Part shown: piece after piece, positions 2,013 to 8,079 of the stretch
Numbering within the stretch: the stretch's first letter is position 1
Layout of the letters: every line of letters starts with the position of its first letter
NCBI GenBank assembly: GCA_013152355.1
Contig: JAADGO010000127.1
Location: forward strand, 1 to 52,857
Source of the DNA: Chlorobiota bacterium
GTDB taxonomy: Bacteria > Bacteroidota > Bacteroidia > Bacteroidales > Prolixibacteraceae
Reading direction: 5' to 3'
DNA length: 52,857 nucleotides
The notes under the pieces: generated by a model
Database searches by the model: none
Told to the model about the DNA's origin: nothing
The model's input: the letters and a program-made list of their open reading frames with translations, nothing else
Program-made: the position numbers and the translations under genes

Positions 2013-2750
2013 TTAAAGATAGAGGAATGATACGGTTGCTATTAAAGTCCCGATTATCGGGCCTGCAATGGGTATCCATGAATATTGCCAGTCGCTGCTC
2101 CCCTTATGGTTCATTGGGAGCACCCAGTGCATGATGCGCGGGCCCAGGTCACGTGCCGGGTTAATTGCATACCCTGTTGTACCTCCCAGCGAAAGGCCAA
2201 TTGCAGTAACCAGCAGTGCCACAGGCAGTGCCCCCAGGGTTCCCAGCCCTAATTTAGGGTCTTCTACCCCGGGCATATCAATACTGGGGCCGCTTAAATA
2301 AAAAATAACGAACATAAGGACAAATGTCCCGATAATCTCGCTAATCAGGTTGCTGGAGAATTTACGTATAGCCGGGCTGGTTGAGAAGCAGGCAAGTTGC
2401 CCGTCCGGGTTTTCGGTTTGGTTAAAGTGGTTTTTATATGTCAACCATACGAGGAATGCCCCGGTAGCTGCACCCAGTATTTGCGACAGGATGAATCCTG
2501 CTACTTTGCCCCATTCGAACAAACCGGCTGCTGCCAGCCCAATGGTTACTGCCGGGTTAATATGCGCTCCGGAAATAGGGCCTGCAACGGCTACCCCGAC
2601 AAAAACAGCCAGCCCCCAGCCCAGGGTTATCACAATCCAGCCACCATTGTGCCCTTTTGTACCTTTCAATACAACATTGGCAACTACTCCGTTACCCAAA
2701 AGGACAAGTAACATGGTGCCTACGAATTCTGCAGTATATTCATTCATCAT
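2013..2750 (-). CDS. glpF: Glycerol uptake facilitator / aquaporin (MIP family)
   Basis: Two NPA boxes (GAHINPAVTIG, GYAINPARDLGPR); adjacent to glpK. Confidence 0.92.
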   Translation of the reverse strand: MMNEYTAEFVGTMLLVLLGNGVVANVVLKGTKGHNGGWIVITLGWGLAVFVGVAVAGPISGAHINPAVTIGLAAAGLFEWGKVAGFILSQILGAATGAFLVWLTYKNHFNQTENPDGQLACFSTSPAIRKFSSNLISEIIGTFVLMFVIFYLSGPSIDMPGVEDPKLGLGTLGALPVALLVTAIGLSLGGTTGYAINPARDLGPRIMHWVLPMNHKGSSDWQYSWIPIAGPIIGTLIATVSFLYL

Positions 2751-2806: not shown

Positions 2807-4312
2807 TTATTGAGCTGTATTTTCCCATTTCTTAGCCCTGGATATAGCTTTTGCCCAATCGGCCAGTAATTGCTCTTTTTCTTTTTGAGGAATATCCATT
2901 ATAAATTTACGGTCAACTGCCCATTGCCCTTTAATTTCATCTATACTGCCCCAATAATTTACAGCCAGCCCTGCCAGATAAGCAGCACCAAGTGCTGTTG
3001 TTTCAATTGTTTCGGGCCGGATCACAGGGACACCGATCATGTTTGCCTGAATTTGCATGAGCAGGTTGTTCACCACGGCACCGCCATCTACTTTCAATTC
3101 ATTGATTTTTATCCCGGCATCGGCTTCCATAGCTTTGATAACATCCACTACCTGGAATGCGATACTTTCGAGGGCCGACCGTGCAATGTGTCCCGCATTT
3201 GTGCCACGGGTTAATCCGGCGATTATGCCACGCGCATACTGATCCCAGTGAGGTGCTCCCAGCCCGGTAAAAGCAGGGACAAAATATACTCCTCCATTGT
3301 TTTCCACAGTGCGTGCGAGGGTTTCCACCTCCGAAGAATCTTTAATAATACCCAGCCCATCGCGAAGCCATTGCACCACGGCACCGCCAATAAAAATACT
3401 TCCTTCGAGGGCATAGGTTGTTTTACCACCTATTTGCCAGGCAATAGTTGTAAGCAGGTTGTTTTTCGACCGTACTGGTTTTTCCCCGGTATTGCACAGC
3501 ATAAAGCACCCTGTTCCGTAAGTATTTTTTACCGACCCCGGGGTAAGGCACATTTGTCCGAAAGTTGCAGCCTGCTGGTCGCCTGCAATTCCTGAAATAG
3601 CAATAGGCTGCCCAAAAAGTGCCTCATTGGTGTATCCGTATACTTCTGAGGATGATTTTACCTCGGGAAGTATGCCCTCAGGGATACCTAATAGTGTCAG
3701 CAACTCTTCATCCCAGGTAAGCGTATGGATGTTAAACAGCATGGTACGGCTGGCATTGGTAACGTCTGTTACATGCACATTGCCATTGGTTAGTTTGTAT
3801 ATCAGCCACGTGTCGATGGTGCCAAAGGCCAACCTGCCTGATTCTGCCTTTTCCCTTGCGCCTTCAACATGGTCAAGTATCCACCTTAGTTTTGTGCCTG
3901 AAAAATAAGAATCAACTACTAACCCGGTTTTTGCATTAATTGTTTCTCCAAGCCCCTGTTTTCGAAGTTCATCGCAGTATTCAGATGTCCGCCTGTCCTG
4001 CCATACAATGGCATTGTAAACAGGTTCTCCTGTCTCCCTGTCCCATACCACTGTGGTTTCGCGTTGGTTGGTAATGCCAATAGCCGCAATGCCCCGGCTT
4101 CCTTCTTTTGTTTTGGAAATTACTTCTTTTGCAGTCTCTAGTTGTGTTGACCATATTTGGTTGGGAGAGTGTTCTACCCAGCCTGGTTTCGGGAATATTT
4201 GTTCAAATTCTTTTTGGGCAACATGAAGTATCTTCCCTTTTTTATTAAAAAGGATTGCCCTTGAGCTTGTTGTGCCCTGGTCAAGAGCCAGTATTAATTT
4301 CTCTTTAGCCAT
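2807..4312 (-). CDS. glpK: Glycerol kinase with intact motifs
   Basis: [77 protein letters not shown]. Confidence 0.96.
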
Positions 4313-4403: not shown

Positions 4404-5972
4404 TTATTCGTTTAGTATATAACCTTGTGCCAGGTTGTTATACATTTCTACCTGTTTCTTTTGCCATTCGCCATTGTAGCCCATTTCTTCAGCCATAAGT
4501 TTTGCAACTTTTGGGGCAATGCGTATGCTTTCGCGTGCATCGAGTAGCAAAGCCCTGGTCCTCCGGGAAAGGCAATCTTCAACAGTACGGGCCATTTCGT
4601 TACGTACCGCCAGGATAATCTGTGCATTGATAAGCCCAAGTTTCTCGCTTAAAAAATCGCCCATGGCGGGAGACTCTTTTATCAAATTGGTTAACAATTA
4701 TTTTTTGTCTGACCCATAATAATAAAGCGGGTCGTTTAAATCGACATCATTTTGGTATCCGTGTATTTTCAGGGCCTTTGTCACTGATTTTTTTAACGGC
4801 AATCCGGCTGTTGCCGATATTTTATTGATTACCTCTTCGGCCATTAACCTGTAGGTAGTCCATTTCCCCCCGGTAAGTGTTACCAGCCCCGATTTGGACA
4901 CCAGAATCTTGTGCCTTCTGGAGATTTCTTTGGTTTTTTTATTTTTTGAAGCAGGGGCCGCCAAAGGGCGTAGCCCGGCGAATACACTAAGCACATCCGA
5001 ACGCCTGGGTGGGGTAATAAGATAGCGACCGGCAGTTTCAAGGATAAAGTCTACCTCTTCGGATAACGGCTGGGGTTCAATTTCTGCAATATTTTTTTCA
5101 ATGTCGGTTGTGCCAACAACTACTTTATTATGCCATGGTACGGCAAATAAAACGCGCCCATCGCTGGTTTTTGGGATCATAACAGCATAATCGCCGGGGA
5201 TAAATCTTTTATCAAGTACAAGGTGTACTCCCTGGCTTGGCTTTATGATATCCTTTGCCTGCGGGTTATCCATTTTTATTATCCCATCGACAAATACGCC
5301 TGTTGCATTGAGTACTGCTTTTGAGTGGATCTTGTATTCCCTGCCTGTTTCCTGGTCGATGGCAGCGACCCCGTCAATTTTACCGTTTTTTTTGAGAAGG
5401 CTGGTTACCTTCATATAATTTATGGCTACGCCTCCGTTTTCTATAAAGGACTGGCATATATTTATTGCCAGCCTTGAATCGTCAAACTGCCCATCGTGGT
5501 AAATGACCCCGCCCCGGAGATTCTCGGCTTTTAGTGTTGGGATACTTTGTAGTGTACGCTTTTTTGTATAAGCAAGCGATTTCCCTAAACTTAGCTTTCC
5601 GGCAAGTAAATCGTATAGTTTAAGCCCGATGGTGTAAAATGGAATGCCCCACCAGTTATAGTTGGGGATAATAAACGATTGGTTTTTTACCAGGTGGGGG
5701 GCATTCTTCTTTAATAACCCTCTTTCGCGTAGTGCTTCAAGTACCAGCAAAATATCTCCCTGGGCAAGGTACCTTACCCCTCCATGTACCAGTTTGGTAC
5801 TCCGGCTTGAAGTGCCTTTGGTGAAATCGCATTGTTCGAGCAGAAGTGTTTTAAACCCGCGTGTTGCCGATTCAAGAGCTGCCCCAATTCCTGATGCACC
5901 TCCACCAATGACTATTACATCCCATAAACCATTAGCTTCTTCCAGCTTCTTTATCATTTTGTCCCTGTTCAT
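4404..5972 (-). pseudogene. glpD: Glycerol-3-phosphate dehydrogenase interrupted by one in-frame TAA
   Basis: ORFs 4698-5972 and 4404-4697 are contiguous and in the same frame: ...YYYGSDKK-*-LLTNLIKESPAMGDFLSEKLG...; the second is the GlpD C-terminal domain (RNEMARTVEDCLSRRTRALLLDA). Confidence 0.85.
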
Positions 5973-6054: not shown

Positions 6055-6071
6055 TACATAGTATAACGATG
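6055..6071 (+). promoter_or_regulatory. Putative PadR operator, site 1 upstream of glpD
   Basis: TACATAGTATAACGATG; near-identical copy at 6106-6122 and related copy upstream of padR. Confidence 0.5.
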
Positions 6072-6105
6072 TTGAAGTATTAGATTATTGCATTCTATAA
6101 AAAGA

Positions 6106-6122
6106 TACATTGTATAACGATG
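6106..6122 (+). promoter_or_regulatory. Putative PadR operator, site 2 upstream of glpD
   Basis: TACATTGTATAACGATG, 16/17 match to site 1, 51 bp apart. Confidence 0.5.
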
Positions 6123-6138
6123 CTTTTAGTTAAAATTT

Positions 6139-7635
6139 TTATTGGTCTTCGGGGTCGAGCCATTTTTGTGATTTTAAAACGGCTTTACTCCAGTATTTTT
6201 TGATTTTATAAACTTTTGAGCTATCCATTCCGGCATTATAAGTCCTGGCAGCTTCCCAATGTTGCTTTACCTCGTCAATACTATCCCAGAATCCAACAGC
6301 AAGGCCTGCCATATATGCACTTCCAAGGGCTGCAGTTTCAATATTTGCAGGTTGTACAATTGGCACATTAAGTATATCTGCCTGGAATTGTAAAAGCATA
6401 TCGTTTATTAAGCGGCCACTAACCCTGATCTCGGACAGTTTCAACCCTGAATCTTTTTCCATGGTATGCAGTACATCGGCGGCACTTAATGCTATAGATT
6501 CGATAACTGCCCGTGCAATGTTGCCAGTGGTAGTGCCCATGTTCAGCCCCCAGAATGTACCCCTTGCATACTGGTCCCAGTAGGGGGCACCCAACCCCGA
6601 CAGTGCCGGCACAATATATACTCCACCGTTGTCGGCCTCGGTTCGGGCCAGTTGTTCGAGTTCCTTGTCCGAATTGATCAGCCCCAATACATCGCGAAGC
6701 CATTGGATGATTGTCCCTCCTGCAAATGCGCTTCCTTCCAGGGCATAGGTTGTGTGCCCCCCGACTTGCCAGGCAACAGTTGACAAAAGGTTGTTGGTAG
6801 AAACAGGTTTATCGCCAACATTCATTAACATAAAGCTTCCGGTGTTGTAGGTATTCTCAACCATCCCTCTTTCGAGGCACATTTGCCCGAATAGTGAGGC
6901 TTGCTGGTCGCCGCAAATACCGGCAATAGGAATATTGGTGCCAAAAAGCGATTTGTCTGTGTAACCGTATACTTCGCTTGACGATTTTACTTCGGGGAGA
7001 ATATCTTCAGGGATGTTAAATATTTCGAGTAATTCTTTATCCCACTGAAGTTTATGGATGTTGAAAAGCATTGTCCTACTGGCATTTGAGACATCGGTTA
7101 CATGTACCTTGCCTTTGGTAAGTTTCCATACAAGCCAACTATCGACAGTGCCAAATGCCAGTTTCCCCGCTTCTGCTAATTCCCTGGCTCCTTCATAATA
7201 ATCAAGCATCCATTTCAGCTTTGTCCCGGAAAATATTGCATCAATCTGCAATCCTGTTTTTTCTTTTATTAAAGGCTGGTAACCTTTGGCTTTCAGTTCT
7301 TCGCAAAACTTCATAGTCCTTTTATCGTGCCAAACAATTGCCCTGCCAAGTGGCTGCCCTGTTTCTTTATTCCATACAATGGCCGTTTCGCGCTGGTTGG
7401 AGATACCTATGGAGGCGATTGCCTCGGGTTGTACCCCCGATTTAGCAATTGCTTCTTCGGCAACACTTGCCAGTATATACCATATTTCACGGGCATCTTG
7501 CTCGGCTAAACTGGTCTTTGGGAAAAATTGTTCAATTTCTTTACCTGCCGAAGAAACAAGGATACCCGATTTATCGAAGATAAAGGCTTGTGACAACGAT
7601 GTCCCCTGGATTAGTGATAGTACATATTTTTTCAT
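6139..7635 (-). CDS. Glycerol kinase paralog with degenerate catalytic motifs (putative pseudokinase)
   Basis: Full-length FGGY/GlpK similarity, but DQGTTSSR->IQGTSLSQ, YFSGTK->IFSGTK, TYGTG->[14 protein letters not shown]->VSGRLIND. Confidence 0.85.
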   Translation of the reverse strand: MKKYVLSLIQGTSLSQAFIFDKSGILVSSAGKEIEQFFPKTSLAEQDAREIWYILASVAEEAIAKSGVQPEAIASIGISNQRETAIVWNKETGQPLGRAIVWHDKRTMKFCEELKAKGYQPLIKEKTGLQIDAIFSGTKLKWMLDYYEGARELAEAGKLAFGTVDSWLVWKLTKGKVHVTDVSNASRTMLFNIHKLQWDKELLEIFNIPEDILPEVKSSSEVYGYTDKSLFGTNIPIAGICGDQQASLFGQMCLERGMVENTYNTGSFMLMNVGDKPVSTNNLLSTVAWQVGGHTTYALEGSAFAGGTIIQWLRDVLGLINSDKELEQLARTEADNGGVYIVPALSGLGAPYWDQYARGTFWGLNMGTTTGNIARAVIESIALSAADVLHTMEKDSGLKLSEIRVSGRLINDMLLQFQADILNVPIVQPANIETAALGSAYMAGLAVGFWDSIDEVKQHWEAARTYNAGMDSSKVYKIKKYWSKAVLKSQKWLDPEDQ

Positions 7636-7649
7636 CTCAATAAACCATT

Positions 7650-8021
7650 TTATCTGTTTTCCGGCATCTCCTGTTTGTTCTTCAACTTGGCAATAGCCAT
7701 GTTAAGTGCTTCAAGATAACTGCTCATTATGCTTAGATGCTCTTCCCCCTTAGGTGTTATTTTGTAGTATTTCCTGGGGATACCTACCTCTTTTTCAATC
7801 CATTCGGAGGTAACCAGCCCTTCTTTCTTCAGCCTGTTCAAAAGTGGGTATATAGTTCCTTCAGCAATCTCTAAAGAAGCAAAATGGTGGATGTCGTTTA
7901 TTAGCTCGTACCCATAACAGGATTTTGTTTTTAAAACAAGCATAATAATATATTCCAAAAGCCCCTTTTTAATCTGAGATTTCCACTTTGAAATAAAATA
8001 TGGCTCATTATCAATATCCAT
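7650..8021 (-). CDS. PadR-family transcriptional regulator
   Basis: KKGLLEYIIMLVLKTKSCYGYELINDI...EIAEGTIYPLLNRLKKEGLVTSEW...PRKYYKITPKGEEHL. ATG at 8021 preferred over the TTG at 8030 used in the ORF track. Confidence 0.92.
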   Translation of the reverse strand: MDIDNEPYFISKWKSQIKKGLLEYIIMLVLKTKSCYGYELINDIHHFASLEIAEGTIYPLLNRLKKEGLVTSEWIEKEVGIPRKYYKITPKGEEHLSIMSSYLEALNMAIAKLKNKQEMPENR

Positions 8022-8027
8022 TTGTAG

Positions 8028-8079
8028 CAAATATAAATGTTATTACATAGTTATACAAGGCACATCGTAATAATATGTA
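8028..8079 (-). promoter_or_regulatory. padR promoter with overlapping putative operators
   Basis: Minus strand: -7 TATATTTG (8028-8035) matches Bacteroidota TAnnTTTG; TTG ~20 nt upstream; operator-like TACATATTATTACGATG (minus strand, 8063-8079) and weaker TACATAGTTATACAAGG (8044-8060). Confidence 0.5.

Follow-up and report, generated by a model that had tools for sequence, protein, structure and literature searches.

Why does a cluster of glycerol genes that already contains a canonical glycerol kinase carry, next to a PadR-family regulator, a second kinase gene with altered motifs? This gene, here termed glpK2, lies in the 52.9-kb stretch of DNA that was analyzed (the window) and occupies positions 6139-7635 of the minus strand, starting with ATG and encoding 498 amino acids with no internal stop codon. 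The cluster, also on the minus strand, has the order padR, glpK2, glpD (split by a TAA codon), canonical glpK, and glpF. The padR gene (7650-8030, minus strand; the likelier ATG is at 8019-8021) is located 14 nt upstream of glpK2, and its product contains the PadR domain PF03551 (72.5 versus 27 bits). The canonical glpK (2807-4312, minus strand) encodes 501 amino acids with all motifs intact, and a glpF-like gene (2013-2750, minus strand) encodes a MIP-family channel of 245 amino acids. The glpD reading frame for the DAO domain of glycerol-3-phosphate dehydrogenase (4698-5972, minus strand) ends at an in-frame TAA (4698-4700), directly followed in the same frame by a TTG codon and by the remainder of the gene, which carries the DAO_C domain (4404-4697, minus strand). 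This interrupted gene is the single glpD of the window genome, and glpD is intact in the Marinifilaceae loci described below; the TAA is either a nonsense mutation, the sign of a split gene, or an assembly error.

Family membership of GlpK2 was assessed with the NCBIfam models TIGR01311 and NF000756, using curated cut-offs and full-length coverage. The scores of the window protein were 685.4 bits (cut-off 498) and 631.3 bits (cut-off 590.35), a domain search covered both FGGY_N and FGGY_C, and the sequence identity with the canonical GlpK of the same locus was 56%. As GlpK2 passes the curated GlpK cut-offs, automatic annotation will label it "glycerol kinase". An AlphaFold2 model based on an alignment of relatives adopted the GlpK fold with a mean pLDDT of 91.4 and a pTM of 0.90, and its top structural matches were solved glycerol kinases, including 1gla and 1bot, with TM scores of 0.87 to 0.95. 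The motifs of the window protein read SLIQGTSLSQA, DAIFSGTK, TYNTGSF, LNMGT, and, with one residue missing, VSGR; NQRET and GDQQA are intact, and IVWQ reads IVWH. The initial annotation had described a full-length GlpK paralog of 498 codons with degenerate motifs and a preserved fold, and each of these points was borne out: all motif differences that it listed are present in the translated reading frame, which is intact, and model and structural matches agree on the fold.

A scan of a genome collection identified four clear orthologs, sharing 61 to 64% identity with the window protein, in Ancylomarina, Marinifilum, Labilibaculum, and a Marinifilaceae metagenome-assembled genome. Within the family of these genera, GlpK2 was present in 23 of 60 genomes; these 23 orthologs are 71 to 91% identical to the Ancylomarina copy and 61 to 65% identical to window GlpK2. 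The search pattern used for GlpK2 recovers all 24 known copies. GlpK2 was not found in 60 relatives of the window genome; the pattern matched the window alone among 394 genomes of its order, GlpK2 occurred in the window alone among 296 genomes of its class, and a plasmid search returned no match at 60% identity or higher. A relative from the same genus has a plain glpD-glpK-glpF cluster that lacks padR and glpK2. In a tree of 150 GlpK sequences, the 24 GlpK2 proteins formed one clade with a support of 100, in which the window copy was sister to the rest; its end branch measured 0.88, compared with 0.34 for the canonical GlpK encoded alongside it. Both horizontal transfer and an old duplication followed by losses fit the origin of GlpK2. 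Three loci from the genus or family of the window (L105, L106, and L110) encode a divergent GlpK-like group with the motifs ILSIDQSTT and CTYGTGCF; these proteins are 49 to 51% identical to GlpK2, have kept Gly267 and Asp410, and are possibly a different polyol kinase.

We then compared the active-site residues of the 24 GlpK2 proteins (window plus 23 orthologs) with those of 126 other GlpKs. The numbering is that of E. coli GlpK including Met1, the E. coli sequence having been compared with PDB 1bo5, and we take the functional roles of the residues to be those in the E. coli enzyme. Four changes at the ATP site were common to 24/24 GlpK2 proteins, namely, G267N in the phosphate-2 loop (codon AAC, 6844-6846, minus strand), T369N and R370M, which convert LTRG into LNMG (6538-6543, minus strand), and a one-residue deletion in the adenosine loop at Asp410, in the window from VDGG to VSG (6418-6420, minus strand). 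Gly267 and Asp410 are present in 126/126 of the other GlpKs and Arg370 in 124 of them. The replacements of Ser16 by Ile, Val, or Leu, of Val337 by Glu, of Ala244 by Cys, and of His48 by Gln were likewise found in all 24. Thr14, Arg84, Glu85, Trp104, the catalytic base Asp246, Gln247, Thr268, Gly311, and Gln315 are unchanged in every GlpK2; among the glycerol contacts, R84, E85, W104, D246, Q247, and F271 are kept and Y136 varies. Judged by these residues, the GlpK2 family has a remodelled ATP site and a largely intact substrate site.

The window copy has additional losses, D11I, R18Q, Y136I, and C270S, and a total of 12 changes at otherwise nearly invariant sites versus 0 to 4 in each ortholog. 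The phosphate-1 residue Asp11 is Ile in the window copy alone (codon ATC, 7609-7611, minus strand); it is present in 23 of the 24 GlpK2 proteins and was lost in none of the other 149 GlpK and GlpK2 sequences. At position 18, 18 GlpK2 proteins have Lys, 5 have Arg, and the window copy has Gln (codon CAA, 7588-7590, minus strand); at the glycerol-contact position 136, 17 have Phe, 6 have Tyr, and the window copy has Ile (codon ATA, 7234-7236, minus strand). The codons ATC and ATA are each at least two bases away from any Asp or Tyr codon, respectively, so D11I and Y136I are not single-base errors; chance or sequencing error as the source of the motif changes is ruled out by these two-base changes together with the 24 orthologs. 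Loss of Asp11 is expected to abolish activity in an actin-like ATPase fold. With regard to Asp11 and Gly267, the residues by which a GlpK would be recognized, position 267 is Asn throughout GlpK2 and position 11 is Ile in the window; the loss of catalytic residues that marks a pseudokinase comprises D11I, R18Q, G267N, and the loop deletion in the window copy and the ATP-loop part alone in the 23 orthologs. The window copy is thus the only one that is probably kinase-dead and a true pseudokinase. Since 23 of 24 proteins keep the phosphate-1 Asp, the term "kinase-dead" used in the initial annotation does not apply to the whole family and is justified, if at all, only for the window copy with its D11I, Y136I, and R18Q. 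As a check, the initial annotation had proposed a search for orthologs with the same substitutions beside padR; G267N, R370M, and the Asp410-loop deletion were present in 24/24 loci with padR adjacent, and D11I, Y136I, and R18Q are restricted to the window.

Codon-model likelihood analyses gave an omega of approximately 0.02 for GlpK2 in Marinifilaceae versus 0.03 for their canonical GlpK. Forcing omega to 1 on the window branch caused a loss of 45 lnL units; as dS is saturated on this branch, we used the rejection of neutrality and left the point estimate of omega aside. A neutral pseudogene is thereby ruled out as an average over the window branch; the rejection does not extend to the latest segment of that branch. 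The 12 changes at nearly invariant sites and the long end branch fit a further functional shift; window glpK2 may also have experienced a recent relaxation, to which the glpD nonsense codon adds some weight. Together with the ATP-site changes common to 24/24 copies, the strong purifying selection, seen in dN/dS, the check that the initial annotation had proposed, shows that this annotation was largely right in considering the gene to be more than simple decay. GlpK2 is therefore a paralog kept by selection despite its losses, with the proviso that dS on the window branch is saturated.

The same padR gene is located directly upstream of glpK2, in the same direction, in 24/24 loci. Both genes were present in 23 of the 60 family genomes; in the other 37, which lack GlpK2, no PadR match exceeded 50% identity. 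Beyond this pair, the cluster is less constant, with glpT and two further genes inserted, a changed gene order, or a second glpD. A canonical GlpK accompanied GlpK2 in every genome found to carry it, and in nearly all cases the two were part of one cluster. In two loci (L156 and L157), the canonical glpK is flanked by two glpD genes, each with its own upstream palindromes of the type described next. The pairing of the GlpK paralog with PadR, noted initially for a single locus, consequently extends to constant adjacency, perfect co-occurrence, and common operator-like palindromes. This comparative evidence lends real support to the putative PadR partnership that the initial annotation had suggested.

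Comparison of upstream regions revealed the 19-bp palindrome TACATWGTNNNACWATGTA, of which perfect copies exist in Marinifilaceae loci. In 331 kb from the 24 loci, 39 of 39 sequences with up to two mismatches were upstream of glpD (26), padR (7), or glpT (6), and with up to three mismatches this was the case for 57 of 61, the consensus having been derived from the same loci as those counted. More independent figures come from 11 glp loci without padR and glpK2, which showed only the background level (4 in 147 kb), and from the entire window, which contains four matches with up to three mismatches where about one is expected; the 64 palindromes at this threshold genome-wide, in 3.38 Mb, serve as a background figure only. 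Two of the four matches are in the padR promoter (8044-8062, two mismatches, and a weaker one at 8061-8079, three mismatches) and two in the gap between glpK2 and glpD, upstream of glpD (6055-6073, two mismatches, and 6106-6124, three mismatches). Palindromes of this type precede glpD in 23 loci; upstream of padR, matches with up to three mismatches were detected in 8 of 24 loci, and the copies are degenerate in most Marinifilaceae. A further possible palindrome, found on contig C126 within a SusC-type gene, was discounted.

The padR-glpK2 promoter of the window has a Bacteroidota-type -7 box, TATATTTG (8028-8035, minus strand), 20 nt after a -33-like TTG at 8056-8058. The palindrome at 8044-8062 overlaps the stretch from this TTG to TATATTTG, as would be expected for a repressor site at the predicted promoter core. 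The operators reported for the PadR proteins LmrR and bcPadR1 have the form ATGT-N8-10-ACAT and are located at the regulators' own promoters (PMC3506622). The palindrome found here reads ACAT-N9-ATGT. Because of this reversed order of the tetranucleotides and the degenerate copies upstream of padR, we treat PadR as the putative binding protein of the palindrome. In the window (8019-8035) and in most Marinifilaceae loci, the -7 box ends about 6 to 7 nt before the padR ATG, and given this short distance the padR-glpK2 transcript may have little or no leader. In Marinifilaceae loci, a conserved reading frame of about 48 codons (MED-RFD...NRLYDFFLDIL...GSIWEFWEKEL) precedes glpD, downstream of the palindrome and about 170 to 190 nt upstream of the gene (e.g., L010, L158, L160, and L167), and a similar small reading frame is present about 200 nt upstream of glpT, also downstream of the palindrome, in L165, L167, L169, and L171. 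The corresponding gap of the window does not contain the 48-codon frame.

Considering the altered ATP site and the invariable adjacency of padR, GlpK2 probably senses glycerol or takes part in regulation and does not serve as an ordinary enzyme. We tentatively propose that padR and glpK2 form an autoregulated module that controls the glycerol genes, with GlpK2 as its likely ligand-sensing partner. In this proposal, the two genes would be an inherited regulatory unit placed before the glycerol operon (glpD, glpK, glpF, and sometimes glpT), and PadR would most likely repress its own promoter and those of glpD and glpT by way of TACATWGTNNNACWATGTA-type sites, whose positions coincide in part with the promoter core. 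Since GlpK2 has a remodelled ATP site but preserves its fold, its catalytic base, and the larger part of the glycerol site, a slow or non-turning-over sensor appears most likely; GlpK2 would sense glycerol or glycerol plus nucleotide, and the ligand-bound protein would alter how active PadR or the canonical GlpK is. From the sequences at hand we infer that PadR may bind the palindromes, that GlpK2 may bind glycerol, and that it may act on PadR or GlpK. In the window genome, GlpK2 would have gone further and has probably become a true pseudokinase, in which the loss of Tyr136 could weaken glycerol binding. A stricter version, in which GlpK2 is an FGGY pseudokinase turned into the ligand-sensing subunit of PadR, so that GlpK2 carrying glycerol would bind PadR and switch the entire glp regulon, seems rather doubtful to us. 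PadR proteins can bind effectors alone, and GlpK2 could therefore be merely a co-transcribed enzyme.

The last consideration leads to the main competing explanation for the Marinifilaceae proteins, namely, an active kinase with a changed nucleotide or polyol preference (another NTP, dihydroxyacetone, or another polyol) that is co-regulated with the glycerol operon, the window copy alone being degenerate. Orthologs that keep Asp11 and the catalytic base may indeed still be kinases: Asp11 (23/24), Asp246, Arg84, Glu85, Thr268, Gly311, and Gln315 are preserved, the fold is intact in the model and the structural matches, and the phosphate-1 loop of the orthologs, DQGTS-[VI]-S-[KR], resembles that of active FGGY pentulose kinases, among which loops of the DQGTS-[VI]-S-K kind occur. 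However, the Gly267 common to all other GlpKs is Asn in every GlpK2, the adenosine loop is shortened throughout, and the strict tie is to padR and not to a new transporter or catabolic gene, which suggests regulation. The window copy has lost Asp11 and Tyr136, yet shows constraint when averaged over its branch, and an active kinase is unlikely for this copy. Overall, we regard an active kinase of changed specificity as somewhat unlikely.

GlpK2 might instead tune the canonical GlpK through mixed dimers or tetramers, the link to padR reflecting shared autoregulation only. E. coli GlpK is oligomeric and allosterically controlled, and the presence of a canonical GlpK in every GlpK2 genome is in accordance with such an arrangement; the linkage of glpK2, however, is tighter to padR (adjacent in 24/24) than to the position-variable glpK, and we consider this explanation improbable. 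Still less probable is that window GlpK2 is a dispensable relic of a decaying operon, in which D11I, Y136I, R18Q, C270S, and the glpD nonsense codon mark a recent relaxation. The 12 changes at nearly invariant sites, the long end branch, and a glpD broken by TAA with no second copy found in the genome speak for decay, but the 498 codons have remained open, omega = 1 was rejected by 45 lnL units (on a branch with saturated dS), and padR, the promoter boxes, and four operator-like sites are retained.

The proposed sensor module has partial counterparts among known systems. GlpK2 shares with glycerol kinases such as E. coli GlpK and the Elizabethkingia GlpK in complex with ADP and glycerol (PDB 6ude, 55% identical to window GlpK2) the full-length two-domain fold (TM 0.87 to 0.95 to solved GlpKs), the catalytic base, and Arg84, Glu85, and Trp104. 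It differs from them by G267N, R370M, and the Asp410-loop deletion in 24/24 proteins and by its constant padR neighbor, and the window copy differs further in lacking Asp11 and Tyr136. With LmrR and bcPadR1/2, the regulator has in common the PF03551 domain and ACAT/ATGT palindromes at its own promoter (PMC3506622), whereas here the tetranucleotides are reversed with a 9-nt spacer, are found at glycerol genes, and accompany a regulator paired with a kinase-like gene. The trigger enzyme GlpQ of Mycoplasma pneumoniae (PMC3178575) embodies the idea of a glycerol-pathway protein that reports a metabolite level to transcription. GlpQ is an active enzyme with an unknown regulator partner, whereas GlpK2, the candidate here, combines an altered active site with a putative regulator encoded beside it. 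The term "trigger enzyme" might describe a working mode of GlpK2, for which the present data provide genetic linkage. Our search of the literature on glycerol genes and PadR proteins did not reveal such a kinase-PadR mode of control, and searches for a glycerol-kinase pseudoenzyme, for PadR with glycerol kinase, and for Marinifilum glycerol kinase returned nothing relevant.

Bacterial pseudokinases of the FGGY (sugar-kinase) type have hardly been described. The GlpK2 locus offers a clean test case, as it combines a clade-wide paralog, defined changes in the ATP site, a linked regulator, and candidate operators; among natural relatives, some carry the padR-glpK2 module and others lack it. For the bacteria that harbor it, the padR-glpK2 locus predicts how one group of Bacteroidales may control its use of glycerol.
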